DNA from: Sulfolobus sp. E5-1-F
GTDB taxonomy: Archaea > Thermoproteota > Thermoprotei_A > Sulfolobales > Sulfolobaceae
Length of the DNA stretch: 64,000 bases
NCBI RefSeq assembly: GCF_009601705.1
Contig: NZ_CP045687.1
Coordinates: 842,630-906,629, forward strand
Direction of reading: 5' to 3'
The notes beneath the pieces are model-generated. The model had not been told where the DNA came from. It ran no database searches and worked only from the letters and a program-made list of their open reading frames with translations. The translations under genes and the position numbers were made by a program. Of the stretch, positions 13,261 to 56,041 are shown piece by piece (position 1 is the first letter of the stretch; each line of letters begins with the position of its first letter).

Positions 13261-14562
13261 TTAAGACAAGTACCATCTTCTCAGTTCCTCTAAATCTACT
13301 AGTTTAACGTTGCCTTCTAATTTCTCCTTCTTCGAAAAGTTCTTAGCGAAAACTACGTATTTATCTACTTCAATCCTTAACCTTCTAGTCTTATCCTCCA
13401 ATTCGGCTAACACTTTATCTGGATTAACTCCGTCACTCCACTTACACTCTCCGGCTATTATCTCATCTCCTATTGCTAAAATATCAATTTCCACGTCCTT
13501 ATACCATTGCCTACCTATCTTTCTAATGGAATATTTGTCCTTAATATATTCTCTGGCAACCTTTTCAAATACGATACCGAGATACTCATTATATTTTTTA
13601 TCATCTAATTCATACTTCCCTTCCTCAATTAAACTCAGATTAGGATAAACGAATCTGAACCAAAAATTAGTAAAATTATCAACTATTACGTAAACCCCCT
13701 TTTTAACGTTAGTTTCCATTACAGGGATTTCCCTGGATATTAACTCTATCCTCTCAATCTTCTTCAAGTAAGAACTTACATCTCCCCCAATTTTCACGAA
13801 GTCCTTTATCTCTCCCAAAGTGTTTTTTCCTAAAGCTATTGCGTACAGTATCTCTTTATACGTAGAGATATCCCTAAATTCATATCGCAGAAGGAAGTCA
13901 ACCTCATCCCTTATGAAGGAGTCAACCCTTTTCAGTTCATCGTTAATCCACTTAATGAAAGGTGGCTTAACCTTATTTAGATATAGGGGTACTCCTCCGG
14001 CAAAACCATAAATTTTTATAGCCTCGTCAATGTCAAATCCGTAATTTTTTAACGACTTAAATTTAAGCTCTTTTATTTTCATTGATCCAGTTCTCCTTCC
14101 ATATAATGGGCTCTTATAAGTCAAAACATCTTCCATTACTGAAATTGAAGATCCTATAAGGATCAGCTTTGTTCTAGTATTCGAAAGAACAGTATCAACA
14201 ATCCTCTGTAACGTTGATAGCATTGTCTTATCCTCCTCAATCATGTAAGGGAACTCATCTATGATTATTATTTTATCCTTTAGAAAATTGAACAGAGCCT
14301 CCCAATCCTCTTTTACATAATCGATCTCGGGAAATTTCAGCTTACAAACTTCCTTAAATTTAGGCAAATTGTTTCGCTCAGTCGCTAGATAGTAAACAGA
14401 GTTCTTCTCCATCCCCTCTATTGCCCTTAAAGCTATACTCGTTTTTCCTATTCTTCTCCTCCCGTATATTATTATTAATTCGAAGTTTGGTGAGGAAATC
14501 CTCTTCTTTAAGCTTTCAAGTTCTTCTTCCCTATCCACAAATATCATATTCACAAATATCAT
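13261..14562 (-). CDS. Archaeal MNS-type ATPase with DUF234 / PD-(D/E)XK-like C-terminus
   Basis: A 433-residue protein. N-terminal half: FVDREEELESLKKR, Walker A IIIYGRRRIGKTS, Walker B KIIIIDEFPYMIEED, and sensor LILIGSSISVMEDV, as in the archaeal ATPase family. After a winged-helix-like region (LGEIKDFVKIGGDVSSYLKKIERI), the C-terminal DUF234 segment has DVEIDILAIGDEIIAGECKW, a PD-(D/E)XK nuclease-like D-x(n)-E-x-K core. Such proteins are abundant in thermophilic archaea and often linked to mobile DNA. The likely start is the second Met (14547), because a 15-base tandem duplication created an upstream copy of the MIFV start. Confidence 0.85.
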   Translation of the reverse strand: MIFVNMIFVDREEELESLKKRISSPNFELIIIYGRRRIGKTSIALRAIEGMEKNSVYYLATERNNLPKFKEVCKLKFPEIDYVKEDWEALFNFLKDKIIIIDEFPYMIEEDKTMLSTLQRIVDTVLSNTRTKLILIGSSISVMEDVLTYKSPLYGRRTGSMKIKELKFKSLKNYGFDIDEAIKIYGFAGGVPLYLNKVKPPFIKWINDELKRVDSFIRDEVDFLLRYEFRDISTYKEILYAIALGKNTLGEIKDFVKIGGDVSSYLKKIERIELISREIPVMETNVKKGVYVIVDNFTNFWFRFVYPNLSLIEEGKYELDDKKYNEYLGIVFEKVAREYIKDKYSIRKIGRQWYKDVEIDILAIGDEIIAGECKWSDGVNPDKVLAELEDKTRRLRIEVDKYVVFAKNFSKKEKLEGNVKLVDLEELRRWYLS

Positions 14563-42409: not shown

Positions 42410-42750
42410 ACTACTACTTTGAGTTCTTTACGACAACGCCATTTGAGGTTGCAACTAGTTTCTCGACATCGATACCTACTCTCCTACCGTTACTTCGTAG
42501 GTGTTTCTTTTCTACTTCCGTTTGAAATACAGCATACCAACTGGTTGCGTTTTTTACTATTATTACTCCCTTCGCTTTCCCCTCTAGTGGTCTGTGGAAG
42601 AGGACCTTTATTGATCTTATTGAAAGGATCAGTTTGTCTCCTTCGATCTTGAACCCAGATTGATTGTAGTTTATGACTTTGAGAGTCTTCTTATACCTTA
42701 GCTTCCCTACTTCGAAAAATTGTCCCTCACATACACATAATCATAGAAAG
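42410..42750 (-). pseudogene. TnpB (IS200/IS605, IS1341-type) fragment, central part
   Basis: Minus strand, about 110 codons: KLRYKKTLKVINYNQSGF, GDKLILSIRSIKVLFHRPLE, GVIIVKNATSWYAVF, GRRVGIDVEKLVATSNGVVV, then a stop. This is the beta-rich wedge region and the RuvC-I strand (VGID) of TnpB. The N-terminal start, RuvC-II, zinc finger and RuvC-III parts are absent. TnpB is the RNA-guided nuclease ancestral to Cas12. Confidence 0.85.
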
Positions 42751-42786
42751 CTTAATAATAGTTCACATTTATATTTTATTGAAACT

Positions 42787-43929
42787 ATGTACAAGAAAGT
42801 AAGGATAAAGAACTTTAAGAGCCTTTATGATGTTGAATTAGATATACGTAAGGTTAACGTAGTTGTTGGACCTAATGGTAGCGGAAAGTCCAATCTAGTT
42901 CAAGTATTTATGTTATTAAGAGAGATTATTAGACCCTCCTCTTATCCCCCATTACCTTTTCTCCCGTTTGGTGGTTACGATAAAGTTGTATATATGCATG
43001 ATACTTCCAAAGATGTTTCTATAGATATAGTAGGAGATGATTTTGAATACTCATTAACGTTTAATGGAAAAGAACACACAATTAACATCAAAAAAGAGTT
43101 TATAAGATATAAAGATTTTACTATTGAGAGAGAAGACGAACTCATAAAAGTGGATGGAAAAGAAATAAAAGAAAACAGAATTTCTCCGTATAATAGTGTT
43201 TTCTCTCTAGTTCAGAAAGTAGGTATGATTACGTTTAGTAATTTACCCGTTCAACTACCTCATGATATAATGGAATTTATGGCAAATTTCGGTTACGATA
43301 TTATCGTCCTAAGGGTTATACCAGAAATAGCAATTTCACAAGTTCCTAATTATTTTCCTCTGAGTCTAAGAGTGGATGGTTATGGTTTAGCTAAATTACT
43401 GTACTTAACAAGACTCAATATTTTTCCCTTCCCAACGATAAAACATGAAAGCGCTGAGAGCATTCCTATTGCCATAAAGAGATTTTTAGATGAGAACAAT
43501 ATGCGGTTTGACTTCCAGATAACTCAAGATGGTAGTATAATGTTAATCTTTAAGGAAAAAATAGGAGATAAAGAGATAACATTAGTACCTCAAGCTGTAC
43601 CCTCCGGTGTTGCAAAAATGCTTGTAATACTATCAGCAATTTATTTACTTAATCCAAAATTGTTAATTATAGATGAAGTTGAGAATCATCTTCATTTAAA
43701 GTTTATAGAAGAATTAACAGACCATTTTAAGTTTTCTAATCCTCAGTTTATTATAACTACGCACTCACCCCTGGTAATTGACTTATACGATCCATCTGAT
43801 ATAGTCTTACTTTCTAGGGAAGGATTTGATACTAAGGCAGAAAGGATAAAAAATAGCAAGGAGTTAACTGATAAATTAATTGACCTAGGGGTTTCACTGA
43901 GTGACTGGATCTTCGGGTTCCCAAAATAA
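42787..43929 (+). CDS. AAA/ABC-type ATPase, RloA/OLD-like
   Basis: 380 residues from ATG 42787, which follows a tttatatttt box; a longer frame from 42673 would run through IS debris. It begins MYKKVRIKNFKSLYDVELDI with Walker A VGPNGSGKSN (about residues 28-36), a variable central region, Walker B LLIIDEVENHLH (about 292-303) and the ITTHSPLVIDL H-loop, the SMC/RecF-type AAA_15/AAA_21 arrangement. The next gene overlaps by 29 bases and encodes a TOPRIM-like protein. The pair matches the logic of OLD- or RloAB-type conflict modules. Confidence 0.82.
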   Translation: MYKKVRIKNFKSLYDVELDIRKVNVVVGPNGSGKSNLVQVFMLLREIIRPSSYPPLPFLPFGGYDKVVYMHDTSKDVSIDIVGDDFEYSLTFNGKEHTINIKKEFIRYKDFTIEREDELIKVDGKEIKENRISPYNSVFSLVQKVGMITFSNLPVQLPHDIMEFMANFGYDIIVLRVIPEIAISQVPNYFPLSLRVDGYGLAKLLYLTRLNIFPFPTIKHESAESIPIAIKRFLDENNMRFDFQITQDGSIMLIFKEKIGDKEITLVPQAVPSGVAKMLVILSAIYLLNPKLLIIDEVENHLHLKFIEELTDHFKFSNPQFIITTHSPLVIDLYDPSDIVLLSREGFDTKAERIKNSKELTDKLIDLGVSLSDWIFGFPK

Positions 43930-44431
43930 AAGGGTCCATATAGTTTCTGAGGATACTTACGGTCCAAAGTTTGTAGAATATTTAATTGATGTTCTAAAGA
44001 GTAAAGGGTTGATACCTCATAACATAGTTCCTTGTAAATCACGTAGCACTAATGGAAAGGGTAATTTTAAGAACGTTGCTATATGGAGGAGAATAAAAGG
44101 TATAATAAGGAGTGGTATATGTGATAAGGCTATCATTTTGATAGATGGTGATGGGAAAGATATTAAAGAAGTTAAAGAGGAGTATAATCTAGATAAGTTA
44201 ACTAAAGAGTTAAGTGAAGACGTGAAGGAGAAGATATGTACAGTAATATTTGATCATGAAATTGAAGAGTGGATTTTACCTAACTCTAATGAACCATCAG
44301 AGGAATTAAAGAGAAAAGAGGATTATGATAAAAGTGATCTACCGAAATATGCTAATGAGATTGATATTGAATTATTAAAGCAGAAAAGTAGAAGTTTTAA
44401 TGATTTTCTCAACTGCATTAACGATCCGTAA
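43901..44431 (+). CDS. TOPRIM / RloB-DUF4276-like putative nuclease
   Basis: 176 residues. The N-terminal VHIVSEDTYGPKFVEYLIDV resembles the E-G-x-T-E start of RloB/DUF4276 proteins, DKAIILIDGDGKD carries a D-x-D as in TOPRIM folds, and VIFDHEIEEWILPN matches the family E-x-W-L. Cysteine-rich stretches occur near residues 46 and 73. It overlaps the ATPase gene by 29 bases in another frame, implying coupled translation. Possibly it provides the metal-dependent cleavage activity of the pair. Family assignment is by motif only. Confidence 0.65.
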   Translation: MTGSSGSQNKRVHIVSEDTYGPKFVEYLIDVLKSKGLIPHNIVPCKSRSTNGKGNFKNVAIWRRIKGIIRSGICDKAIILIDGDGKDIKEVKEEYNLDKLTKELSEDVKEKICTVIFDHEIEEWILPNSNEPSEELKRKEDYDKSDLPKYANEIDIELLKQKSRSFNDFLNCINDP

Positions 44432-44531: not shown

Positions 44532-44981
44532 GTGATTAACTTGAAAGGAAATAAAATCGATTACCTATTTCTCCTTTTTGGACTATTAGGATTAGGTGCA
44601 ATGATATACTCTTATCTGACCTTTGGCCTAGATGTGATAAATAGTAACAGTTGTACCATAAATTCTGTAATAAGTTGTATATCAGTCGAAACTTCTAGAT
44701 ACTCAACGTTTCTAGGTATAAAACTATATTATTACGGAATCGCTTACTTCTCCGCCATAATACTACTCTTTTTATTCGTTGTAATGGGAATAGGGACAAA
44801 TATATCTGGCTACTTAATTTTCCTTCTAAGTATCCTAGCCTCTATCATATCTATTTACTTAATATATACTGAAATATTCTTGTTAGGACACATATGCATA
44901 CTATGTACTTTAGCACATGTCTCCATTTTCAGTATCTTAGTCCTCTCAATAATTAGGTTCAAAGATTCACTTTTAGCCTAG
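44532..44981 (+). CDS. VKOR-family membrane thiol oxidoreductase (DsbB-like)
   Basis: About 150 residues from GTG 44532 (TTG 44541 is an alternative; an ATG at 44400 would add 44 residues that lack homology-like features and overlap the preceding gene). Four hydrophobic helices. VKOR features: NSCTINSVISCISVETSRYS, with paired Cys and a Ser, FLGIKLYYYGIAYF, and the active-site C-x-x-C in GHICILCTLAHVSI. The family makes disulfide bonds outside the membrane. It follows the TOPRIM-like gene by about 100 bases; co-transcription is possible. Confidence 0.75.
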   Translation: MINLKGNKIDYLFLLFGLLGLGAMIYSYLTFGLDVINSNSCTINSVISCISVETSRYSTFLGIKLYYYGIAYFSAIILLFLFVVMGIGTNISGYLIFLLSILASIISIYLIYTEIFLLGHICILCTLAHVSIFSILVLSIIRFKDSLLA

Positions 44982-44991
44982 TCCAAATAAG

Positions 44992-45490
44992 TGAACTATC
45001 CTACCCTTAAGGATAAGACACCTCAAGGTGAGGATTTCTCGCTTCTTCCAGGAAACTTGCTATGGACCCCTTCTGAGAAGGGAATGTATGGTAGAGGTTT
45101 CCTGTCCACAGACACTAAGGGCAGTCCCGACCCCGCACAAAGAATAATCACGATCTACAACCTAACCACACTTAGGACAAACAAATACTCGATCCTCAAG
45201 AGTAAGATCGTTCTTTACATAACCACAGCGAACACACTTCCTTGACGTATTCCTCGGGTTTACCTTCACCAACTTCCTACTAGCTCCTTTAGCCTTGTAG
45301 AAGAGGAAAAGGGAAAAGTTGGAATGTGTTTCCTAAGTCTCTCGACTTCTCTACTATTTGCTTATTTTCCAGATCTTCAACGTAAATCTCCTCGTATTGC
45401 TCCACAAGCCACGCGTTTACCTTAAGTGTAAATATAAGAGGAGTGAAGAACCATAGTAGTTTCATGAAAATAACGTGTAATATATACAAC
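44992..45490 (-). pseudogene. TnpB C-terminal relic with element right end
   Basis: Minus strand: LVEQYEEIYVEDLENKQIVE (RuvC-II), an internal deletion, YKAKGASRKLVKVNPRNTSR, zinc-finger KCVRCGYV...FVCPKCG, an in-frame stop, VVDRDYS (RuvC-III) and a degenerate tail RGP*QVS. The tail runs into a GC-richer segment (44992-45060) with complementary blocks cttaaggataag and cctcaaggtgagg, resembling the structured 3' end of IS200/IS605 elements that forms the TnpB guide-RNA scaffold. Confidence 0.8.
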
Positions 45491-45610
45491 GTTTAATTTT
45501 TCAAATAAGGTAAATTTATACTATATACGCTTCATCAATTTATGATTACTTAAATCCTCTTGAGGAGAATCTATCTTAGTGTTTAAGGTTTAACGTAAAT
45601 CTGCGTAAAG
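45477..45610 (+). repeat. ~140-bp noncoding repeat, copy 3
   Basis: Blocks gtaatatatacaacgtttaa, aatttatactatatacgc, tacttaaatc, gaggagaatcta and ttagtgtttaagg match copies 1 and 2 in order. It overlaps the upstream side of the TnpB C-terminal relic, but in the opposite relative orientation to copy 2, so it is not simply the end of that element. Confidence 0.6.
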
Positions 45611-45855
45611 TACTAATCTAGATAATCATATCGATACTAAAGTTACCTTTTATTAGTTGAGGTGATTTTCACAAGAAAGAAAACCATCTTCCGCTTTTAT
45701 TTCCCATTTCGGAAAAAATTATGCCTAGTTCTAGTTTAAACTGTACCAATTGTGTATTCTTGAAAATCCTTGAACTTTCGTGTATTCAAAAATTCTCTTC
45801 GAAAACTTTTTCGCGTCTTGCTAATTACCTCGTTACAATATCTATTTCAGAGTTC
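45611..45855. other. Intergenic, no gene seen
   Basis: AT-rich DNA between the repeat and the GHKL ATPase gene; a frame on the plus strand (45721-45942) is antisense to that gene's end and is not supported. Confidence 0.35.
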
Positions 45856-46986
45856 TTAATATTCCTCTTTAATCAAGACCTTTACACTTTTCAACTTCAT
45901 CTTAGCCAGTTCAACAGCGTAAGAACTTACGTTAGCAACTAAACTAGGCTTATTCTCTAAAGCCCTAAAATCATTACTAACGACTATCTCATCTGATCTC
46001 ATATTTTCAGATATTTTCTCTATCATGTATGATAGGACTTCTGGGAATTTTTCTAGAAATTTTTTGGTATCTTCTGTGAAGTTGCAAATATACTGAAATT
46101 GCCTAACCTCACACAGTTTCAGCATGTCCTCAGCTATCTCCCTCTTGTACTCCTCCCTTAAGATCGAACTTAAAAATTTTAACGTCTCGTCATTTACGTA
46201 AACGTTCAAGCCAAAAGGATCTGAGGAAACACAGCAAAGATTACCGGTAAATGGTATACCCCAGAAACCAACCAAAACTCCATTCTGATAAACCGGAACT
46301 CTACCCATTATCTTCAAAACGTTAGAGGAGGGCACGATCAACTTATCGAAAGGATAAGTAAAGCGTATATCTACCTTCTCAGCTCTCACGTAAACAATGG
46401 TCTTATTATCTGTTTTAACATTAGCCCTAAAAACGACAGGTAAAGCTTGGTTCTCGTCTATCCAATTAGGTATTGGTTGATGAAAGATCTCATTATCGTA
46501 TTTCACACCAAATGAGTATGCGTGGTTTCCAGTTAATATATAGATGGGAATCCTCTTATATAAGGCTAATATTATTGCGTGTTTTAAACCCATTCCATAT
46601 CTCCCAATACTACAACAATTCTCTAACGTTAATCTTTTCCTAGTTCTAGATCCAAATAGAAGTAGATCTCTCTCAGATATTGTCCCCTCATTCTCTATTT
46701 TATAGTATCCACCATCGTAGACGAAATTTAATTTCTTGTATGTATTAAGAGTTTCCTCTAGATCTTTGGCATTCTCTATCATAGCGTCAACAGCGTTTTC
46801 AAATATCTCCCTTAAAATGAAAACAACGGGATAACTTTCATATACTTGACTAGAACAAATCACACTAAATATGTTCCTAGAATATTGTAAAGTAACGAAA
46901 TCATAGCTCATGTATTCATTAAACGTTGCCTCAAAGGGATCAGTGATACTTATTGGTTCGCTCAAGGGGTTAAATTTTAAAGACAT
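45856..46986 (-). CDS. Stand-alone GHKL (Hsp90/MutL/TopoVIB-type) ATPase
   Basis: 376 residues. N-box: REIFENAVDAMIEN (about residues 59-72), with catalytic Glu, Mg-binding Asn and DA. G1-like turn: IENEG (97-101) in place of D-x-G. G2/ATP lid: GRYGMGLKHAIILAL (128-142). A second alpha/beta transducer-like domain follows (KTIVYVRAEKVDIRF onward), and the C-terminus is helical. No histidine-kinase, MutL or Hsp90-specific parts. Flanked by TnpB and IS relics inside the accessory island, which suggests a conflict or DNA-related function (inference). Confidence 0.8.
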   Translation of the reverse strand: MSLKFNPLSEPISITDPFEATFNEYMSYDFVTLQYSRNIFSVICSSQVYESYPVVFILREIFENAVDAMIENAKDLEETLNTYKKLNFVYDGGYYKIENEGTISERDLLLFGSRTRKRLTLENCCSIGRYGMGLKHAIILALYKRIPIYILTGNHAYSFGVKYDNEIFHQPIPNWIDENQALPVVFRANVKTDNKTIVYVRAEKVDIRFTYPFDKLIVPSSNVLKIMGRVPVYQNGVLVGFWGIPFTGNLCCVSSDPFGLNVYVNDETLKFLSSILREEYKREIAEDMLKLCEVRQFQYICNFTEDTKKFLEKFPEVLSYMIEKISENMRSDEIVVSNDFRALENKPSLVANVSSYAVELAKMKLKSVKVLIKEEY

Positions 46987-47201
46987 AGTTCAGACTCGCC
47001 TCCACATAGTACATATTACCTCTTTACCTTCAGAGTATATAATAACTTTAACGATATTTAAGCTATTGGGTTAAATTCTTACGTAAAACCTAACGAAGTT
47101 ATCCGTCAATTTTTATCCTACTTAAGGTAATTCAATTTTTAAAGTCAATTTGTGATCTTATTCCTCATTAACCCCCTTTCATATTATGGTGATACAACAA
47201 C

Positions 47202-47548
47202 TGAGAGCGTTCTGTGCAGTAATCTTATTTGATAAATAGTAAAATTATATCAGTATCCCTATATACTATATTACCCTCAAGTAGGTTTAGCTCAAGTTAT
47301 CTCCCTTGAAAATACATTACGTTCAACAAAGCCAAGCTATAATTCCCTATCTTCTAACCCCTATTAATCCTAGTATCCCTCGCAAGATCTACATCAAGAA
47401 TTATACCTCTTCCTTATTTCGTATAAACTTCCTCAAGCTGTATTGCAGTTCTTTGCCTCTAAGTCAAGACGACTAATTGTGAAAATTTCTATCATAATAT
47501 ATTTTTACAATGATATATCAAATAAGATTACTGCATGAGAATACTCCG
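47202..47548. mobile_element. Degenerate IS relic of the GGGAGTGTTCTC family
   Basis: The left end GAGAGCGTTCTGTGCAG and the right end (reverse complement GGAGTATTCTCATGCAG) are decayed inverted repeats. The interior shares aaattatatcagtatccct, ctcaagtaggt and caaggccaagct-like blocks with 55447-55700, and aagacgactaattgtgaaaa with the MITE at 12910-13154. No intact transposase. The surrounding 46987-47610 gap holds nothing else. Confidence 0.65.
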
Positions 47549-47610
47549 ATATTTTTAAACACCTTATAATTAAACGTAAAATATAAATATACAACTTCAA
47601 ATATAACTCA

Positions 47611-48510
47611 ATGATAGAAGTATTAAATGTTTCGAAGAAGTACGGGAACTTTTTGGCATTACAAGACGTTACGTTCACTATCAACAACGGGGAACTAGTA
47701 GGTTATGTAGGTTTAAATGGGGCTGGGAAGACAACAACAATAGAAATAATAGCCGGAGTTAGCTTCCCTTCATCAGGAGACGTAATTATTGACGGCCACA
47801 GCATAACTAAAGAGAAGAAGGAAGCGTCAAAAAGAGTAAGCTGGGTACCTGAATTACCAATATTCGAACAGGACGCAAAAGCACTAGATTACTTCATTTA
47901 CCTCGCAGGATACTACGGAATAGAAAAAGAAGAAGCGAAAAAGAAAGCGGAAGAATTATTCTCATCCTTTGGTTTACTAGGAAGAGAAAAAGATAAACTA
48001 AAAAACTACTCCCAAGGAATGAAAAAGAGGTTCGTATTAGCAGTATCTTTACTTTCAGATCCTAACAACTTCATATTCGATGAAGTATTAAACGGTCTTG
48101 ATCCCCAAGGAATAATGTTCTTCAGAGACCTAGCTATAAAGTTGAAAAGGGAGAAAAAGGCAATTTTGTTCTCCTCCCACATTCTTTCAGAAGTAGAGAG
48201 TATAGCAGATAGAGTAATTTTCATTCATAAAGGTAAAATAATAAGGCAAATGGCAATGGACGAAATAAGGAAGTTCTTTAGTTCTAATACCTTTAGGGTT
48301 ACTTTAGGAAGAGTTGACAATAACGTAATTAAGATAGCTGAAAAGTACGGTAATCCTACACTTCAAGGTAACACGATCGTTATAGAAAACTTTAACGGAA
48401 ATATCACTGGACTTTCCTCAGATCTGTCTGAGTATAACATAATTGAAATGAGTAGACTTGAGGGCAATTTGGAGGAAGTGTTCTTCAAGTTAATAGGTGA
48501 TCAAAAATGA
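47611..48510 (+). CDS. ABC transporter ATP-binding protein
   Basis: 299 residues: Walker A GLNGAGKTT (about residues 36-44), Q-loop VPELP, signature YSQGMKKRF, Walker B NFIFDEVLNGLDPQ with the catalytic Glu, H-loop SSHILSE, and a ~80-residue C-terminal exporter-type extension. The start ATG at 47611 follows an AT-rich box (aaatataaatataca). The permease gene overlaps by 4 bases. It differs from the pair at 9367-11086, so the window has two ABC-2 exporters. Confidence 0.92.
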   Translation: MIEVLNVSKKYGNFLALQDVTFTINNGELVGYVGLNGAGKTTTIEIIAGVSFPSSGDVIIDGHSITKEKKEASKRVSWVPELPIFEQDAKALDYFIYLAGYYGIEKEEAKKKAEELFSSFGLLGREKDKLKNYSQGMKKRFVLAVSLLSDPNNFIFDEVLNGLDPQGIMFFRDLAIKLKREKKAILFSSHILSEVESIADRVIFIHKGKIIRQMAMDEIRKFFSSNTFRVTLGRVDNNVIKIAEKYGNPTLQGNTIVIENFNGNITGLSSDLSEYNIIEMSRLEGNLEEVFFKLIGDQK

Positions 48511-49940
48511 ATCCCGTATTTTATGACTTTAAGCGGAGTTTCCTTCGATTATCAGTAATAATTTTTATTATTATATTTGCTACTTTAGGAATATCAGCCT
48601 CTTATGAAACTTATGTGTCAACTGTAGCTCCTAATCCTTATTTTTATCATGATCTGAATGTGATAGGAGTGAGTATTACAAAGGGAGACGAAAATAATAT
48701 TATTGGTTATGTATTTAATAATCAAGGAAATCCTATAAGTAATGCAGAAATAAACGTAAATAATTCCATTTATAGGACTAATTCCTCAGGCTATTTTAGT
48801 ATTAATGTAAGTTCTAATTTCTCAAAACCTATTATTATATCCTATAATAATCAAAAAATCTCATTTGAACAATCTTCAGTGTTCGGGAATGGTACCAAAT
48901 ACTTATCTACAGTATTATTCACATTATCTACCCCTGTAACACACAAGCTATTCAGTTTAAATAATGATAATTCGGTGATTTCGACTTCTAATTCAAATAG
49001 TATGGCATCTTTAGGATTGGTAATAGTTAAAGATACGTTAATTTTGGTTACAAATAATCCTAATAATCAGCAAGTTTATATACAATTCCGAAGCTTGACT
49101 TCAAATACTTCTACAAATGGAGAATACATAGGAAATGTAACCAACTACTTTAATTTTTATCACATCCAATCCCCTAGTTCGGAGAAATTACTAATAGTTA
49201 CAATAATCTCTAATAAGTCTTTACAATCTACATTTTCCTCACTATATTATCCTCATGGAGATGCCATTACATCACTAGTAAATAATATAGATGATGTAAT
49301 GGGCATATTTGCTATTGTTTTCCCGATTATAATGCTATATTTAGCATATGTTCTCTTTTCTAAGCCAAGAGATACTGGTGCACTAAAGTTCATACTCGCA
49401 AGACCTATCACAAGAAGGGAATTATATATTAATAGATATTTAGGAGGTGTAATAACAGCTGTATTATCTTCATTTCTACTTAGTTTTCTATCATACATTA
49501 CTCTTTCAGTTTTACTATTATCTTCAGGAGTCTCATTGCCGATAAATATTCCACTGTTAACTTTCGCTTATGTTACTGCAGAATTGATAGCCTTCTTCTC
49601 ATTAGTATATATGTTACCATCTTTCATAAAATCTGGAGGAACAATGCTGGGAATATCTATATTTCTTTTCTTATTCTTTGAAGTAGGAATAAACATTATA
49701 GCTGAAGTAATGGCTCTTACAACTCACAATATCAGTGGAATAACTAATATATTATGGGAGATTTATTACTTTAGTCCTTTAGGAGTACAAAGTTACGGAA
49801 GTTATTATTTAGAACGCCAGTACGGATTAACATCAACAATAAGCACTGTTCATTTACCTTTAGTAATATTGTCTACAATATTATGGATTATAGTTCCATT
49901 TATAGTTGGCTTAATAAAATTCAACAAGATAAACATTTGA
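48507..49940 (+). CDS. ABC-2 permease with an extracellular carboxypeptidase-regulatory-like domain
   Basis: 477 residues. After the first helix (about 12-32), an outer ~190-residue region contains IIGYVFNNQGNPISNAEINV...RTNSSGYFSINV, the pattern of the CarboxypepD_reg/Ig-like fold. The remaining helices from about residue 250 hold the ABC-2 motif PRDTGALKFILARPITRREL. Outside, numerous N-x-S/T sequons suggest glycosylation. The large loop between helix 1 and 2 is the usual site for extracellular domains in type-V/ABC-2 exporters that handle peptides or surface polymers. Substrate unknown. Confidence 0.85.
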   Translation: MNPVFYDFKRSFLRLSVIIFIIIFATLGISASYETYVSTVAPNPYFYHDLNVIGVSITKGDENNIIGYVFNNQGNPISNAEINVNNSIYRTNSSGYFSINVSSNFSKPIIISYNNQKISFEQSSVFGNGTKYLSTVLFTLSTPVTHKLFSLNNDNSVISTSNSNSMASLGLVIVKDTLILVTNNPNNQQVYIQFRSLTSNTSTNGEYIGNVTNYFNFYHIQSPSSEKLLIVTIISNKSLQSTFSSLYYPHGDAITSLVNNIDDVMGIFAIVFPIIMLYLAYVLFSKPRDTGALKFILARPITRRELYINRYLGGVITAVLSSFLLSFLSYITLSVLLLSSGVSLPINIPLLTFAYVTAELIAFFSLVYMLPSFIKSGGTMLGISIFLFLFFEVGINIIAEVMALTTHNISGITNILWEIYYFSPLGVQSYGSYYLERQYGLTSTISTVHLPLVILSTILWIIVPFIVGLIKFNKINI

Positions 49941-49967
49941 TTTTTAACTGAAAGTTTGTGGGTGTTC

Positions 49968-50002
49968 TAGGGGAGTGTTCTCATGCAGTCATCTTATTCG
50001 AG
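49968..50002. mobile_element. 35-bp IS-end remnant left of the STAND/SLOG cassette
   Basis: TAGGGGAGTGTTCTCATGCA and the next 15 bases are identical to 55447-55481 (direct orientation). This is the terminal part of the same element family as at 12910 and 47202, cut off exactly where the 42-bp inverted repeat begins. Confidence 0.8.
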
Positions 50003-50043
50003 TTTTTGAAGTATTTCAAATTCACATCATTTTCAGTAAACTA
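50002..50043 (+). repeat. 42-bp perfect inverted repeat, left copy
   Basis: The 42 bases are the exact reverse complement of 55287-55328. The sequence starts gtttttgaagtatttcaaat and ends cagtaaacta. Lies 39 bases beyond the stop of the SLOG gene. Confidence 0.95.
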
Positions 50044-50081
50044 GTATTAGAAAAAGTATTACAATTATAAAAATAACCTTC

Positions 50082-51764
50082 TCATGCAAAGCTTGCGGAC
50101 ATTTCATCGGATGTGTACAGACGTATTAAAAACCAGTTGGCGTTCTCCCTCATTGCCTCCTTTGCAAGTTCAACGACTATTTCGGAGTTTTTATCTGGAT
50201 CTCGGTTGTCCCATCGATTCATTGCCTTATTAAATACTTCTGCCATATCTTTATATTCTTCGCCGATCTGCTCAATTTTGAACCTTTCAAAGTAATTTTC
50301 CAAGGCGCCAATAAAGAATGTTAAAATATATGTCCCTATCAAGATGCCAAATGTAATTAGCTTGCTTATGGACATTACGTTCAGAACGTTCAACAAGACC
50401 ACCAGCGAGATGCCGACAATAATCAAGAATTCAACAACCCTTTTCAGCTTATTTACTTCTTTCTCATACTTATTCACCGTACTTGAGTAATACTCGAGCT
50501 GCCCTCCAATCCAATACTTCTTTACCGCCTCAAAATCGGGCCTTGGCTGCGGATCAAATACGTTTACAGACTTCAGCGTTTCCCTAACCCACCTAATGTA
50601 TTTCTTGTACCTCCTTGGATAGAGATCGTGAATGTCCTCATGCTTCCCGGCAAGCCTCAAAAAGAACAAAACCCTAAGCCCCTCAGCCAAAGCCCTATAC
50701 TGTATATATTTCAGACGAAATGATTTCGAAAGTTTCAAATACCTAAAAATAATCAATGAAACTATGTAAAGCACAGAATACGACAGCAAAGCCCAAAAAG
50801 CATCTGATAATTCATAAAACAAAAGCAGAGTTAACAACAAAAACCCCAAAATAAATATCTGAGAAATCTGAGTTAACCTCCACCTATCCCTATACCTAAT
50901 TGAAATCGCATCAGACTCTCCAAATATAAATGAAACAAAATTCTCCTTCCTAAGAATTTCCTCACGCTTTCTCGAATCCTCCTCAAAAACTAAACTATCC
51001 CTAGATCTCTTAACCTCCTCCTCACTCAACTTCTTAACCTCCCTATTAAATTCGTCAATTTTCTTAAACGTTTCATTCTTATCTAAACACAACTCCTTTC
51101 CACCCTGACCAATCTCCGGACACAACCATTCAACCGTGGGATTAAAGTTCAACTCCGGATACTTCTTCCTCCTAGTACGAATATGCACGACAACTCCCTT
51201 ATCAGGCTCATCCAAAGGACCTATATACGGTGTATACTCATTAGGCAAACCCTCCAGTTTAAACTTAACTATTTCAGATGTCCCACCCTTTAAACCCGTA
51301 ACCTTACCATCCCAAAGAGCTATCAACACTTGACAATGTTTAACTATATACACACCAACTTCCTCATACCTTTGATCCCTTTCCGGCCCATACTGTTTTA
51401 TTGCATCTATTTTACTAGGATCTATTGGCAAAGTGAAATAGCCTAACGCTTGTTTCTTAAGCCTCTCATATTCCTCTAACGAATCCTTGAAGTCATCCTT
51501 GTACAGATCCTCCCGCATTGGCAATACAACAACATACTTCACACCCTCCTCCAAAGCAGCCTCAGCAGCAATCCTATCAGCACCCTCAGCCAAAGGAGTT
51601 AAGAGAAGCAAAGGAGTATCAGGAAACTTACTCCTCAACTCCCTAAAAACCCCTTTGATCAACTCCTTCAACCTATCCCTATCTTCATCAGGTATATCCC
51701 TATGCCCAGTTATCCCAACTACAAGATGTATATACTTCCTTTCAGCATCTACGTCTTTACTCAT
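50082..51764 (-). CDS. SLOG-domain protein with four membrane helices (SLATT-like), putative effector
   Basis: 560 residues. SLOG domain: VVGITGHRD (15-23), LTPLAEGADRIAAEAAL (55-71), VVLPMREDLY, QVLIALWDGKVTGLKGGTSEIV (145-166). Then a charged linker, two helices (301-318, 322-342), the juxtamembrane QYRALAEGLRVLFFLRLAG (355-373), and two more helices (443-462, 467-486), followed by a soluble tail. SLOG folds bind nucleotides or NAD derivatives, and SLATT-type helices are predicted pores, so membrane disruption on ligand sensing is the inferred action. ATG overlaps the STAND gene stop (ATGA), indicating coupled expression. The protein has no signal peptide. Confidence 0.8.
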   Translation of the reverse strand: MSKDVDAERKYIHLVVGITGHRDIPDEDRDRLKELIKGVFRELRSKFPDTPLLLLTPLAEGADRIAAEAALEEGVKYVVVLPMREDLYKDDFKDSLEEYERLKKQALGYFTLPIDPSKIDAIKQYGPERDQRYEEVGVYIVKHCQVLIALWDGKVTGLKGGTSEIVKFKLEGLPNEYTPYIGPLDEPDKGVVVHIRTRRKKYPELNFNPTVEWLCPEIGQGGKELCLDKNETFKKIDEFNREVKKLSEEEVKRSRDSLVFEEDSRKREEILRKENFVSFIFGESDAISIRYRDRWRLTQISQIFILGFLLLTLLLFYELSDAFWALLSYSVLYIVSLIIFRYLKLSKSFRLKYIQYRALAEGLRVLFFLRLAGKHEDIHDLYPRRYKKYIRWVRETLKSVNVFDPQPRPDFEAVKKYWIGGQLEYYSSTVNKYEKEVNKLKRVVEFLIIVGISLVVLLNVLNVMSISKLITFGILIGTYILTFFIGALENYFERFKIEQIGEEYKDMAEVFNKAMNRWDNRDPDKNSEIVVELAKEAMRENANWFLIRLYTSDEMSASFA

Positions 51765-54700
51765 CCTCTCTCCCCTCTCCTAGCCATCTCAACACATTGC
51801 GATGCGAGATTAGCGTAGTAATTCAAATTAAACCTCCTAAATATATCCAATGCCTCACTACACGCCTTAATAGCTCCATCATAATCACCCTTCTCTAAAT
51901 AAATATAACCAATGGCAATCAAAGTGGTCGCAAATTCTGGGCGATTTCTACCATATACCTTCTCCCTAATACTTAAAGCCTCATTATAGTACTCTAAAGC
52001 CTTATCGTAATCACCCTTCTCTTTATAAACAAGACCAATGTTATGTAACGTACCTGCAACATCTGGGTGATTCCTACCATATACCTTCTCCCTAATACTT
52101 AAAGCCTCATTATAGTACTCTAAAGCCTTATCGTAATCACCCTTATTTACATAGACATTCCCAATGTTATTCAATGTGTCCGCAACTTTTGGATGATCCC
52201 TACCATATACCTTCTCCCTAATACTTAAAGCCTCATTATAGTACTCTAAAGCCTTATCAAACTCACCCTTCTCTTTATAAACAAGACCAATGTTATGTAA
52301 CGTACCTGCAACATCTGGGTGATTCCTACCATATACCTTCTCCCTAATACTTAAAGCCTCATTATAGTATTTTAAAGCCTTATCAAGCTCACCCTTCTCT
52401 TCATAAATAGCTCCAATGTTATGTAACGTACCTGCAACATCTGGGTGATCCCTACCATATACCTTCTCCTTAATACTTAAAGCCTCATTATAGTATTTTA
52501 AAGCCTTATCAAGCTCACCCTTCTCTTCATAGACATTCCCAATGTTATTCAACGATACCGCAACATTCGGATGATCCCTACCATATACCTTATCATAAAT
52601 ATTCAAAGCCTCATTATAGTACTCTAAAGCCTTATCGTAATCACCCTTATTTACATAGACATTCCCAATGTTATTCAACGATACCGCAACATTCGGATGA
52701 TCCCTACCATATACCTTATCATAAATATTCAAAGCCTCATTATAGTACTCTAAAGCCTTATCAAACTCACCCTTCTCTTTATAAACAAGACCAATGTTAT
52801 GTAACGTACCTGCAACATCTGGGTGATTCCTACCATATACCTTCTCCCTAATACTTAAAGCCTCATTATAGTATTTTAAAGCCTTATCAAGCTCACCCTT
52901 CTCTTCATAAATAGCTCCAATGTTATGTAACGTACCTGCAACATCTGGGTGATCCCTACCATATACCTTCTCCTTAATACTTAAAGCCTCATTATAGTAC
53001 TCTAAAGCCTTATCAAGCTCACCCTTCTCTTCATAAATAGCTCCAATGTTATTCAATGTGTCCGCAACATTCGGATGATCCCTACCATAGAACTTCTCAT
53101 AAATACTCAAAGCCTCATTATAGAAATTCAGTGCTTCATCAAAACAACCCAACGAACCCATTAAAATTCCAAGGTCATTTAAAATATCAGCCCTCTCCTT
53201 GTTATCTTGAACGCCCGTAACTTTATCACTAAACATCATATTCTCACAATCCTTCCCAAAACCAAACGTTACATAATTAACCAACTCGTAAAACCTGTTG
53301 TTAGGGTACTCTCTTAAGAAGAGCTTAAGCACGTTAACGTTTGAGAGGTATTTCCTAATCTCATCCCTATCACCAACCATGTAAAGCTGGTAAGGTGCCT
53401 CATATATCTGCCTCTCATCAACCTCTTGCTTCGAAAAGTAATTGTAAATTTTACGCCTATACTCAACTTCCTCACCCTTATCCTTGAACAACTTCTTCAC
53501 CATATCCCTCAAAGACTCATGCATGAAATCAAGCAAATCATTCTTATTAGCCAAATTATAATCAAGATAATTCCTCATAACCGAAAGATATGCGGGAAGT
53601 ATATCCGACGAAATCCCAACAACCTCATTTTCACTCAACCCACTCCTAGAAACAGCAATCAACTTCAAAAACTCTAAAACCGACTTATCATTCCCAAAAT
53701 ACATGTACATCACACGCCTAAGCTCCCCAACCATAACACCATAAAGATCCTCCAAACTTCTCACAAGATACTTCCCTATCATCCTATCCATAAATTCATT
53801 CTGAGACTCCTTCTCCTCCTTCATTTCGTAAATCCCTAAAAGCATATTAAGGAGCGTCCTCAAGTACAATGGATTCCCAGCCATCTCCTCCTTAACTATC
53901 CTCTTAATTTGATCCTCCGTCAATTCCTTCCCCGCAGCCTTTAACACCCTCCTTATTATCTCCTCCCTCTGCTCAATCCCCAGACTACTCAGCACGTACT
54001 TTCTGAAGCCCAAGTTCACCAGATAATTAAACTGCTCAGTGTTATCCCTACACGACGCAAGAACCTTCACCTCATTTAGATAACTAACGAAAAGTAACTC
54101 CCGAGCCTCCGGCAGTTGGTCAAGACCATCTATTATTATGAGCGCATCTTCCTTATTAGGAAGAAGGCTCAACCACCTTGATAACATCGCGTAAATTTTA
54201 TCCTCCTCATTTGGAATTTCCTCATCGATCTTAATACCATTGGACTCTAACCTCTTCTTTAGTTCTTGGAGTAAGTGAAGCGCGATGTCCTTTGACGTCT
54301 CTCTTCCTCCCGCCCCTATGTAGTGTTCAAAAACAAAGGCGTTAGGTTTCTCGCCTCTGTATATTTCGCTCAAGCGGGCTAGCGTAGCGCTCTTCCCGAT
54401 CCCAACTTCACCAGTAACCACAACCCTTCTTTCTTTTTCCAACTTTTCCAATATTTCTTTCAAGGTCTTCTTATCCTCAACGTAATTATTCAATAGCTCC
54501 ATCTTGTATTGTGAGTGTATTAAGTTGATCTGGTCAAGCTGCGAGATCGACTGTTCAGGGTAGTTCTCGTCGAGCATTTTAATGAAATCTTCTACGATTT
54601 GTTCTCCCAACTCTACAGGGTTCTCAAACTCCTTATCTCTCCAGTGCCAAGGTGAATCCTTCACCCTGATTTTACTCTTTAAATCCTGAAGCTTTCTCAA

Positions 54701-55162
54701 ATTTTCTGAGTCATCTTGTTTTTCAGTAGATGCTTTATCAGATTTGAAATAGAAGTAGGAGTATTTTGCCATTTCGGGCTTGAGGAAGACCGCATAGTCT
54801 ATTTCCATGTGGGTAATGCTGTACCCTTCTTGAGTCCATTTGTCCTTCAACGTCTTATCTACTTTAAGTTTGTCCACTTGTTCCTTAGAAGGTACCGTGC
54901 CGTACCTGTTGCCCAGTATTCCTATAAAGTGGGGTCTTGCCTCATCTATCTCTGCGAGGCACCTCTCAATGATCTTGGCTAGGTCGTTTTCTGTAATACC
55001 CCATCTCAAGTCTATTATGGTTACATATACTCCTCTGCTTCTCGCTATACTTCTTAGCTTGGGGTAAACTACGTTTACTAGGTAATCGCGCTCTTTATTC
55101 ATATCCCTAAAAGTTGAGGAGACGAAAATCCTTACAACGTTTTTCTTTTGCTTCCCGCTCAT
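51761..55162 (-). CDS. DUF4062-NACHT/STAND NTPase with kinesin-light-chain-type TPRs
   Basis: 1133 residues. Residues 8-~130: DUF4062 (RIFVSSTFRDMNKERDYLV, DLRWGITEND, EIDEARPHFIGILGNRYGT), the domain at the head of NPHP3/TEP1-like proteins. NACHT-type NTPase: Walker A VVVTGEVGIGKSATLARL (247-264), Walker B ALIIIDGLDQLPEA (340-353), then winged-helix regions. Residues 659-1078: ten 42-residue TPRs (LHNIGLVYKEKGEFDKALEY type), plus a partial eleventh. STAND proteins oligomerise on binding a trigger, here probably through the TPRs. A TATA-like tttaaata lies about 25 bases before the ATG. First gene of the cassette. Confidence 0.88.
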   Translation of the reverse strand: MSGKQKKNVVRIFVSSTFRDMNKERDYLVNVVYPKLRSIARSRGVYVTIIDLRWGITENDLAKIIERCLAEIDEARPHFIGILGNRYGTVPSKEQVDKLKVDKTLKDKWTQEGYSITHMEIDYAVFLKPEMAKYSYFYFKSDKASTEKQDDSENLRKLQDLKSKIRVKDSPWHWRDKEFENPVELGEQIVEDFIKMLDENYPEQSISQLDQINLIHSQYKMELLNNYVEDKKTLKEILEKLEKERRVVVTGEVGIGKSATLARLSEIYRGEKPNAFVFEHYIGAGGRETSKDIALHLLQELKKRLESNGIKIDEEIPNEEDKIYAMLSRWLSLLPNKEDALIIIDGLDQLPEARELLFVSYLNEVKVLASCRDNTEQFNYLVNLGFRKYVLSSLGIEQREEIIRRVLKAAGKELTEDQIKRIVKEEMAGNPLYLRTLLNMLLGIYEMKEEKESQNEFMDRMIGKYLVRSLEDLYGVMVGELRRVMYMYFGNDKSVLEFLKLIAVSRSGLSENEVVGISSDILPAYLSVMRNYLDYNLANKNDLLDFMHESLRDMVKKLFKDKGEEVEYRRKIYNYFSKQEVDERQIYEAPYQLYMVGDRDEIRKYLSNVNVLKLFLREYPNNRFYELVNYVTFGFGKDCENMMFSDKVTGVQDNKERADILNDLGILMGSLGCFDEALNFYNEALSIYEKFYGRDHPNVADTLNNIGAIYEEKGELDKALEYYNEALSIKEKVYGRDHPDVAGTLHNIGAIYEEKGELDKALKYYNEALSIREKVYGRNHPDVAGTLHNIGLVYKEKGEFDKALEYYNEALNIYDKVYGRDHPNVAVSLNNIGNVYVNKGDYDKALEYYNEALNIYDKVYGRDHPNVAVSLNNIGNVYEEKGELDKALKYYNEALSIKEKVYGRDHPDVAGTLHNIGAIYEEKGELDKALKYYNEALSIREKVYGRNHPDVAGTLHNIGLVYKEKGEFDKALEYYNEALSIREKVYGRDHPKVADTLNNIGNVYVNKGDYDKALEYYNEALSIREKVYGRNHPDVAGTLHNIGLVYKEKGDYDKALEYYNEALSIREKVYGRNRPEFATTLIAIGYIYLEKGDYDGAIKACSEALDIFRRFNLNYYANLASQCVEMARRGERG
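52227..52999. repeat. Tandem block duplication within the TPR region
   Basis: The segments 52227-52495 and 52731-52999 are identical over 269 bases and sit exactly 504 bases apart (four 126-bp TPR units). At protein level units 2-5 and 6-9 form matching blocks, showing a recent duplication of a four-unit array. Confidence 0.85.
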
Positions 55163-55286
55163 AAATTATTATAATTAGGTGTATATTTAAACATATATGT
55201 TCCTTAATTATACTACAATGTTACCTTCATGTTGAATACACCATTATCAACAGTTTCCAATAGATCATGAAATCTATCTCACTTAG

Positions 55287-55328
55287 TAGTTTACTGAAAA
55301 TGATGTGAATTTGAAATACTTCAAAAAC
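55287..55328 (-). repeat. 42-bp perfect inverted repeat, right copy
   Basis: Exact reverse complement of 50002-50043. Located 125 bases upstream of the STAND gene start, so the two copies bracket the whole cassette (5.3 kb). Confidence 0.95.
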
Positions 55329-55358
55329 TTTTTATGATGATAATACCAAAATTAGATA

Positions 55359-55490
55359 ATGAAAATAACGAGTCTCTTCAATAGGGGATTTGTAAGGGTA
55401 AGGAAGTACCTAGGGCAGTTCAGTAATAAACATTTCGATCGAATTTTAGGGGAGTGTTCTCATGCAGTCATCTTATTCGAGAACTATTAG
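55359..55490 (+). pseudogene. Short frame interrupted by the IS end
   Basis: ATG at 55359 opens MKITSLFNRGFVRVRKYLGQ...NKHFDRIL, which then runs into the IS end at 55447 and stops. It looks like the first 30 codons of a gene disrupted by the insertion; no family recognised. Confidence 0.3.
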
Positions 55491-55700
55491 TAAAATTATA
55501 TCAAGTTTTCTCTAATATATTGTACTGTCCTCAAGTAGGTCTCGTTCAAGGGAGTTATCTCTCTTGAGAACACGTGAGGATACATAATGTTCCACAAGGC
55601 CAAGCTGCAATCTACCATCCTCTGACTCCTATTAACCTTAGTATCCCTAGCTAACCTAGCAAGACCTACACCAAGAATTATGACTCTCCACAATGTAAGT
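55447..55700. mobile_element. IS relic with transposase C-terminal fragment
   Basis: Begins with the 35-bp terminus shared with 49968-50002. On the minus strand a 65-codon frame (55496-55693) reads LARLARDTKVNRSQRMVDCS...ETYLRTVQYIRENLI, which I take as a transposase C-terminal piece, though I could not assign its IS family. The other element end is not found; it is truncated near 55700. Confidence 0.65.
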
Positions 55701-55748
55701 TTACTTCTTACTATACGATTGTCAAGAACTTGATAAACACAGTAGTGA

Positions 55749-55970
55749 TCAGTATAGTTTAACCCACTTCTCGGTAATAGAGAAAACTGAAGGTCTTATG
55801 ATCCCTATCCTAAACTCAAAGAACGGTATTCTATCTGGCAAACCCATAGATCCTCTTCCCATGCCTAAATAAGTCCAGAACTCGTCAAACACTCTAAATT
55901 TAACAGTAAACTCTTGAGTTTGACCCTTCAAGATTGACAACTCAAAAGCTTTTGACTCAAACCTCTTCAC
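55749..55970 (-). CDS. Small hypothetical protein
   Basis: 73 residues, acidic/aromatic: QTQEFTVKFRVFDEFWTYLG, GLPDRIPFFEFRIGI. Beta-strand-rich, no known motif. It may be the end or core of a larger truncated gene since it borders IS debris. Weak but plausible coding frame. Confidence 0.35.
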   Translation of the reverse strand: MKRFESKAFELSILKGQTQEFTVKFRVFDEFWTYLGMGRGSMGLPDRIPFFEFRIGIIRPSVFSITEKWVKLY

Positions 55971-56041
55971 TAGGCTATATATTGTAGTTATAATAGGTTG
56001 TTAAGGATCAGACTTATTATTCCGTTTTCGTAAAATACTAC

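Follow-up and report, generated by a model that had tools for sequence, protein, structure and literature searches.

A DUF4062-NACHT-TPR gene overlapping a SLOG-SLATT gene in Sulfolobus sp. E5-1-F: a candidate two-gene conflict module

DUF4062 NADases, STAND sensors, the SLOG sensor of Thoeris, and SLATT as a predicted effector have all been described before. A May 2026 preprint (PMC13174449) reports that DUF4062 is a TIR-like NADase domain with a conserved catalytic Glu, present in KpSwz and in TEP1, and that Swarozyc is a bacterial antiphage system using it. According to the same source, TEP1 has NADase activity and alone among four human DUF4062-NACHT proteins cut NAD+ (purified NPHP3, NWD1, and NWD2 were inactive), and its TIR-like domain hydrolyzed NAD+ to ADP-ribose (ADPR) only, with further ADPR derivatives not seen. 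Thoeris consists of ThsB TIR plus ThsA SIR2-SLOG or transmembrane (TM)-macro proteins, and its TIRs make cyclic ADPR isomers, ADPR, or a base-exchange product (PMC11204291). The SLOG domains of ThsA and TRPM2 are reported to sense ADP-ribose-type ligands (PMC11204291, PMC13143021), and SLATT proteins are predicted membrane effectors regulated by nucleotides or ADPR derivatives that also occur beside TIR genes (PMC9503650, PMC7159879). Here we analyze a cassette in a 64,000-nucleotide stretch of Sulfolobus sp. E5-1-F (contig NZ_CP045687.1, positions 842,630 to 906,629; this whole stretch is called the window), in which the gene for a DUF4062-NACHT-TPR protein overlaps the gene for a SLOG-SLATT membrane protein. 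We hypothesize, with a probability of about one half, that the pair is an abortive-infection (conflict) module, gained by horizontal transfer, and operates as a Thoeris-like relay with a front end of the NOD-like receptor (NLR) type.

The locus shares parts with each of these systems. An N-terminal DUF4062 domain and the conserved Glu are common to the Swarozyc/DUF4062 NADase family, and the DUF4062-NACHT order is that of TEP1 and NPHP3, with TPRs that are NPHP3-type by Pfam name. KpSwz is described as DUF4062 plus a portal-binding winged-helix AUX domain, without NACHT, TPR, or a described membrane partner (PMC13174449), whereas in the window protein DUF4062 is followed by NACHT and ten TPRs, a distinction drawn from the published description of KpSwz; the main text of that preprint mentions neither SLATT nor SLOG. 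The resemblance to Thoeris is a works-like analogy, an NAD-derived signal read by a SLOG or membrane-anchored ADPR-binding effector (PMC11204291). The window system differs in that its enzyme domain (first 187 aa) has no Pfam TIR match at E up to 1, its sensor is an NLR, and its effector is SLOG fused to two SLATT-like units, in which neither SIR2 nor a macro family was matched (E up to 1). The SLATT and TIR/SLATT systems predicted by Aravind and colleagues likewise set a two-TM (2TM) pore effector responsive to nucleotide signals beside TIR neighbors, but the pairing with DUF4062-NACHT-TPR was not found in the cited passages of those papers (PMC7159879, PMC9503650), and in the window SLOG and two SLATT-like units are joined in one protein. 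Avs/STAND defense NTPases have the same STAND ATPase with an N-terminal effector and a C-terminal TPR region, and Avs3 and Avs4 are among the fold matches; the window differs by its DUF4062 effector and separate membrane partner and gave no Avs profile match at E up to 1. In TRPM2 a SLOG-type MHR1/2 domain is fused to a membrane channel reportedly opened by ADP-ribose (PMC13143021), and its likeness to the SLOG-SLATT protein is confined to the SLOG-domain fold (Z 8.4), the pore being TRP in one and SLATT in the other.

Both genes lie on the minus strand, and the start of the SLOG gene falls inside the stop of the large gene (ATGA), an operon-like overlap of 4 bp. The features of the cassette are as follows.

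51761 to 55162, minus strand: large gene, a 1133-aa DUF4062-NACHT/STAND-TPR protein, sensor and predicted NADase (open reading frame [ORF] calls, Pfam, PDB sequence match, STAND fold)
54758 to 55135, minus strand: DUF4062 (TIR-like) domain, about aa 10 to 135 (Pfam match aa 11 to 124; Glu120 codon at 54803 to 54805)
53798 to 54550, minus strand: NACHT/STAND NTPase region, about aa 205 to 455 (Walker A 251 to 260, Walker B 342 to 350, fold matches)
51920 to 53179, minus strand: ten NPHP3-type TPR units of 42 aa (126 nt) each (repeat search, Pfam)
50082 to 51764, minus strand: SLOG gene, a 560-aa membrane protein with SLOG and two tandem SLATT-like 2TM units (ORF call, Pfam, NCBIfam, AlphaFold, YpsA fold)
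55184 to 55191, minus strand: archaeal TATA-box-like TTTAAATA, beginning 29 nt upstream of the large-gene start (pattern match only)
51765 to 51780, minus strand: GGAGAGGGGAGAGAGG, purine-rich and Shine-Dalgarno-like, preceding the SLOG gene within the end of the large gene (pattern match only)

The cassette exceeds chance in its long ORFs, its intact motifs, the invariant or near-invariant motif residues of its family alignments, and the recurrence of the pairing elsewhere. Scans for sigma-70 promoters and terminators, with models not apt for an archaeon, stayed at the level of shuffled sequence.

The large protein carries the motifs FVSSTFRDMNKERD (aa 13 to 26), DLRWG (51 to 55), GEVGIGKSAT (251 to 260, Walker A), and IIIDGLDQL (342 to 350, Walker B). 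Pfam placed DUF4062 (PF13271) in it at E 4.2e-13 and 49.7 bits, against a cut-off of 24.7, and the score was 54.2 bits when the first 187 aa were scanned separately. The sole PDB sequence match to the first 667 residues (E up to 10) was the TIR-like domain of human TEP1 (11gz; E 2.9e-17). Glu120 was invariant in both alignments (6/6 and 3/3 proteins); its TEP1 counterpart in the alignment is the second Glu of SVTEME, which we infer to be E1008. No TIR chain stood out for the DUF4062 region among the structure matches, whose lists were filled by STAND and AAA chains, so the claim about the DUF4062 fold rests on sequence. The AlphaFold model of this N-terminal part (first 667 residues) was of middling confidence (predicted local distance difference test [pLDDT], 67.8). 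Its residues 213 to 509 matched a plant resistosome (Z 14.7), Avs3 (14.2), and a STAND-TPR protein (13.3), as well as Dark, Apaf-1, and Avs4, and G254, G256, K257, S258, and D345 were invariant in all six aligned proteins. The C-terminal repeats matched TPR_NPHP3 (E 3.9e-106) and other TPR families in Pfam. Units 3 and 7 are identical across 126 nt, and units 2 to 4 compared pairwise with units 6 to 8 are 94.4, 100, and 90.5% identical, a pattern that suggests reshaping of the sensor array by block duplication or conversion.

The SLOG protein contains GITGHRD (17 to 23), AEGADRIA (59 to 66), ALWDG (149 to 153), GGTSE (160 to 164), and QYRALAEGLR (355 to 364), together with four hydrophobic regions. 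Pfam matched YAcAr SLOG (6.6e-4), DUF4231 (2.3e-4), and SLATT_1 (1.5e-3), each below its curated cut-off, as was SLATT_1 of NCBIfam (5.1e-5); among 38 family members (E up to 0.01), DUF4231 was matched in 16, SLATT_1 in 10, and SLATT_3 in 6. The columns of R357, E361, Q422, and W544 were invariant in the 38 aligned SLOG-SLATT proteins, and those of the GxxGH, GAD, and GGT motifs were invariant or at least 90% conserved. An AlphaFold model, built on an alignment with 37 relatives hand-picked from the best 80 described below, reached a pLDDT of 91.3 and a predicted template modeling score of 0.90 and contains two 2TM units (helices 275 to 320/323 to 343 and 411 to 463/468 to 495). Residues 12 to 210 matched YpsA best (Z 16.0), followed by DprA, ShosA, a molybdenum-cofactor carrier, and LOG proteins, which by the model places the SLOG domain in the YpsA-like clade. 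Matches to TRPM2 with ADP-ribose, ThsA (Z 7.4), and ThsA with a cyclic ADPR analogue (7.2) were weaker, and the Foldseek E-values of the model were weak (best 1.5e-3, DprA).

The first-pass annotation of this DNA, made from the sequence alone, had noted the two ORFs, their ATGA overlap, the motifs, the ten TPRs, and four membrane helices, all of which were recovered as described. Its STAND NTPase with a TPR sensor agrees with the Walker motifs and the STAND fold matches (Z up to 14.7), and its view of DUF4062 as a TIR-like nucleotide enzyme gains support from the TEP1 match and the invariant Glu120, which make that activity plausible. The SLOG sensor that it saw fused to membrane helices likewise appears in the model, as a YpsA-like domain followed by two predicted 2TM units.

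When 84,980 species genomes were scanned with a three-protein SLOG-SLATT alignment, 272 relatives came up, and all later counts refer to the best 80 of these 272. Genes were called at the 80 loci and searched with local DUF4062 and TIR profiles. A SLOG gene with at least two predicted TM segments was present at 73 loci; L076, L085, L130, L131, L135, L150, and L152 were left out of this set and kept in the per-gene rates. A TIR or DUF4062-type gene lay within two genes at 31/73 SLOG-SLATT loci. Across the 80 loci the rate per gene fell from 27/153 at ±1 to 9/136 at ±2, 6/126 at ±3, and 8/458 at four or more genes (Fisher, ±1 versus at least 4 genes, p = 3e-11, with TIR carrying most of the effect). 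Because the profiles were partly seeded from the counted loci, the test was repeated with Pfam (E up to 1e-4) on 112 near neighbors (next gene within 500 bp, at least 150 aa; near genes only). Of these, 111 were chosen by script; the remaining one, L122:6476-9508, was included manually and is one of the DUF4062 matches. TIR_2 was the top family in both halves of this set (20 neighbors; 9/54 and 11/58), DUF4062 was found in 5 (2/54 and 3/58, one hand-added), and ThsB_TIR was found in 4/58. SLOG-SLATT lies near a TIR and a WD40 protein on a Caballeronia plasmid and adjoins TIR-TPR and CHAT proteins on a Novosphingobium plasmid. Pfam-supported DUF4062 genes occur within about 1 kb of the SLOG gene at 5/80 loci:

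L151: DUF4062-NACHT-TPR gene, 193 bp from the SLOG gene, same strand
L088: DUF4062-STAND-TPR gene, about 1 kb from the SLOG gene, same strand, with two short ORFs intervening
L122: DUF4062-NB-ARC-TPR gene, about 450 bp from the SLOG gene, divergent
L079: 370-aa DUF4062 gene, 144 bp from the SLOG gene
L152: DUF4062-WD40 gene, 80 bp from the SLOG gene, here a SLOG-only gene

DUF4062-STAND-TPR and SLOG-SLATT thus stand together at L151, L088, and L122, and the record titles of the pair loci are Deltaproteobacteria (twice), Armatimonadetes, Planctomycetaceae, and Nitrospirae. The DUF4062-like nSTAND1 neighbors at L087 (itself a seed of the local DUF4062 profile) and L138 scored below the Pfam cut-off (8.2e-5 and 1.6e-3), and the neighbor at L154 had no Pfam DUF4062 match; these three were therefore excluded from the five supported cases, and all of them count in the 31/73. 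A TIR fusion in L123 was considered and rejected, since the gene that matched the local TIR profile was one of its seeds and Pfam gives SLOG only. In a rapidly built tree, whose 61 rows were selected by length (L123, L146, and L149 left out; several long branches and the odd composition of the window protein flagged), the seven DUF4062-partnered rows, window protein included, need 5 changes and show no clear clustering (58/500 shuffles as low). This scatter suggests that SLOG-SLATT proteins repeatedly recruited DUF4062 partners, which would have been exchanged instead of inherited as one unit.

Other gene arrangements were seen at these loci. At L079:14403-20446, the N-terminal part of a 1430-aa protein is TIR-like (by the local profile, of which this protein is itself a seed), and its gene has a four-base overlap with a DUF4062-STAND gene, 7 kb from the SLOG-SLATT gene that the small DUF4062 gene follows. 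A gene of 850 to 880 aa with VVSGDVTVDWF / VLVTGDLTMDWN near its start precedes the SLOG gene at L141:7381-9933 and L152:2100-4736. Stand-alone SLOG genes (L069, L070, L071, and L073) cluster with TIR genes on Agrobacterium, Rhizobium, and Novosphingobium plasmids; the Agrobacterium and Rhizobium clusters also hold caspase-family genes, and that of Agrobacterium also CHAT.

The presence of the cassette is lineage specific. Among 31 genomes of the archaeal family (7 of the genus), only one has a whole SLOG gene, and the SLOG protein is whole in 1 of 398 phylum-sample genomes, in both cases its own. Two other genomes of the phylum sample gave partial matches, one a SLOG stretch and one a stretch with two stops (L002 and L003). 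The stretch in L003, a genome of the same family, has two TAA stops, matches the first SLATT-like unit weakly (E 5.3e-4), and is possibly a remnant. The large protein was likewise found in 1/398 phylum-sample genomes, its own, while relatives of it were found in 4/198 and 4/297 genomes of two bacterial phyla, including the Armatimonadetes genome G399 and G398 and G404, known from the SLOG loci. By record title, 79 of the best 80 relatives of the SLOG protein are bacterial, and these counts rule out an archaeal-specific system. Single-protein scans found no close relatives of the SLOG protein in genome contigs, nor of either protein in viral contigs. In scans of viral contigs with two alignments, A3 gave no match and A2 gave one partial match, L075. 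A tblastn search of plasmids and phages with the SLOG protein found none at the default limit and 11 weak plasmid records at a laxer one.

The cassette is bracketed by repeats, which are listed here with the insertion sequence (IS) ends next to them.

50001 to 50046, plus strand: left arm of a 46-nt inverted repeat, one end of a repeat like a miniature inverted-repeat transposable element (MITE) (repeat search)
55284 to 55413, plus strand: MITE-like repeat of about 130 nt, its first 46 nt being the right arm of the inverted repeat
49965 to 50002, plus strand: solo IS end, in direct repeat with 55444 to 55481
55450 to 55990, plus strand: truncated IS of about 540 bp, repeated in the genome, to which the right IS end belongs

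The two 46-nt arms (50001 to 50046 and 55284 to 55329) are 98% complementary, and the limits that the first-pass annotation gave its cassette (50002 to 55328) fall within 1 base of this repeat, which it did not mention. At least 10 near-full copies of the MITE-like repeat, 89 to 90% identical, occur elsewhere in the host genome (2.54 Mb, one contig). The inverted MITE-like arms with IS ends immediately outside (49965 to 50046 and 55284 to 55990) form an arrangement like that of a composite element. The flanking repeats may have mobilized the cassette. A 19-kb piece fetched from the relative G911 matches the window at 32.1 to 36.6 kb, 41.1 to 41.8 kb (inverted), 44.5 to 45.0 kb, and most of 56.0 to 59.6 kb; 44961 to 55987 has no match in that piece, which places the cassette in a variable region.

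Other genes of interest occur in the window. At 42673 to 44431 (plus strand) an AAA_21 ATPase (1.7e-23) is followed by an overlapping DUF4276 protein (1.4e-7), a pair of the ATPase-effector type known from abortive-infection systems; the ATPase matches NsnB, AbiLi, AriA, HEC-01A, and others in PADLOC. An Archaeal ATPase_2-DUF234 protein at 13261 to 14562 (minus strand) also matches the candidate defense profile PDC-S27 (6.4e-37). Within the stretch unmatched in G911, a 376-aa protein at 45856 to 46986 (minus strand) resembles, on visual inspection, a GHKL (Hsp90-type) ATPase (GRYGMGLKHA); neither Pfam nor PADLOC matched it at E 0.01.

We propose the following relay. In the resting cell, the NACHT/STAND ATPase would be kept inactive by the TPR array. 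A viral or other trigger would bind the TPRs, and the ATPase would then oligomerize and bring the N-terminal DUF4062 domains together, which may cleave NAD+ at the active-site Glu120 to give ADP-ribose or a related product. Binding of this product to the YpsA-like SLOG domain of the partner would open or cluster the two SLATT-like 2TM units and break the membrane barrier, and the cell would stop or die prior to virus release.

The first-pass annotation had presented the cassette as a candidate undescribed archaeal conflict system and had made the idea depend on the pair recurring elsewhere. Similar pairs do occur in several bacterial phyla, and the component families and the recurrent TIR/DUF4062 neighborhood support a role in conflict or defense. 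An archaeal origin is not apparent, given the single whole SLOG gene in the family and the largely bacterial relatives. The pairing of a DUF4062-NACHT-TPR gene with a SLOG-SLATT gene was not found in the open-licence literature searched; within that scope, the claim of novelty applies to the exact pair and not to its parts, which are already described.

Several observations weigh against the proposed relay. No TIR or DUF4062-type gene lies within two genes at 42/73 SLOG-SLATT loci, some of them cut by contig ends; the distance effect of DUF4062 alone is small (5/153 versus 3/458, p = 0.027); and the neighbor counts carry the seeding of their profiles noted above. Eleven stretches around other DUF4062 genes (10 with a DUF4062 profile match; several of them fragments or cut by contig ends) had no SLOG-SLATT profile match. 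Of the four such DUF4062 genes in G399, a single one was paired; among the remaining three, one extends past the end of its contig. The SLATT matches of the SLOG protein score under curated cut-offs, and its Z scores with ThsA and TRPM2 (7 to 8) are weak, at a level that common arrangements reach. In addition, NPHP3, the closest architecture, did not cut NAD+, and TEP1 yielded ADP-ribose by hydrolysis and no other ADPR derivative (PMC13174449). The DUF4062-gene stretches lacking a SLOG-SLATT match rule out an obligate pair. The pairing is better described as recurrent but optional, and DUF4062-STAND proteins may work by themselves or pair with different genes.

Alternative explanations differ from the proposed relay in its signal, its coupling, or its purpose. 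The signal of the relay might be something other than ADP-ribose: a cyclic isomer of ADPR, the product of a base exchange, or a different nucleotide. Alternatively, the SLOG domain might itself process a nucleotide. The range of products made by Thoeris TIRs (PMC11204291) and the occurrence of both enzymes and sensors among SLOG domains (PMC9503650) agree with such a variant, which we rate as somewhat unlikely, the purified TEP1 TIR-like domain having given no additional ADPR derivatives (PMC13174449). It is rather unlikely that the large protein alone is the defense, an NADase of the Swarozyc/TEP1 kind with NLR architecture that would kill by depleting NAD+, and that SLOG-SLATT is a loosely coupled second effector or an unrelated passenger. 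DUF4062-STAND proteins without a visible SLOG-SLATT neighbor are common, and KpSwz is reported to act via NAD+ depletion, with no partner gene mentioned in the main text (PMC13174449); the 4-bp overlap of the two window genes, the far higher frequency of TIR-family genes at ±1 of SLOG-SLATT than farther off, and the similar pairs under the titles of several bacterial phyla all speak for a closer coupling.

The coupling could also be direct, with DUF4062 as a catalytically dead adaptor that binds the related SLOG domain, so that the membrane protein would be clustered by the NLR oligomer itself and no diffusible signal would be needed. We consider this distinctly improbable: TIR and SLOG folds are considered related (PMC9503650) and TEP1 was the sole active member of the four human proteins (PMC13174449), but Glu120 and its surrounding motif are intact and invariant, and the apparent exchangeability of TIR and DUF4062 partners is easier to reconcile with one diffusible product common to both than with a common binding surface. 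We give little credence to a cassette that is not antiviral at all, be it mobile cargo, a module for competition or stress that the flanking repeats maintain, or a decaying locus. Its position between inverted MITE-like arms and IS ends and the lack of the SLOG gene in relatives would suit such an origin; against it stand the two intact frames, the conserved motif residues, the TATA-like box and Shine-Dalgarno-like stretch, and the presence of the component families in conflict systems.

At less than even odds, we tentatively extend the proposed relay to an undescribed two-gene immune class, in which an NLR (DUF4062-NACHT-TPR) would make ADP-ribose or a relative of it that gates a SLOG-SLATT channel, a microbial counterpart of TRPM2. 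The channel would be a shared effector that, in many bacterial phyla, takes on TIR or DUF4062 sensors interchangeably, and a repeat-flanked cassette would have brought it into a Sulfolobales-type archaeon. If true, this would join NLR-type sensors, DUF4062/TEP1 NADases, and SLOG-gated membrane proteins, which are usually studied apart, and it predicts a channel that reads the breakdown of NAD by an NLR, as in the animal TRPM2 pathway. The small archaeal pair, probably heat stable, would be suited to reconstitution. It would allow a direct test of the function of the DUF4062-NACHT-TPR architecture found in human NPHP3, and of pore formation by SLATT, a prediction in the cited papers (PMC9503650, PMC7159879).

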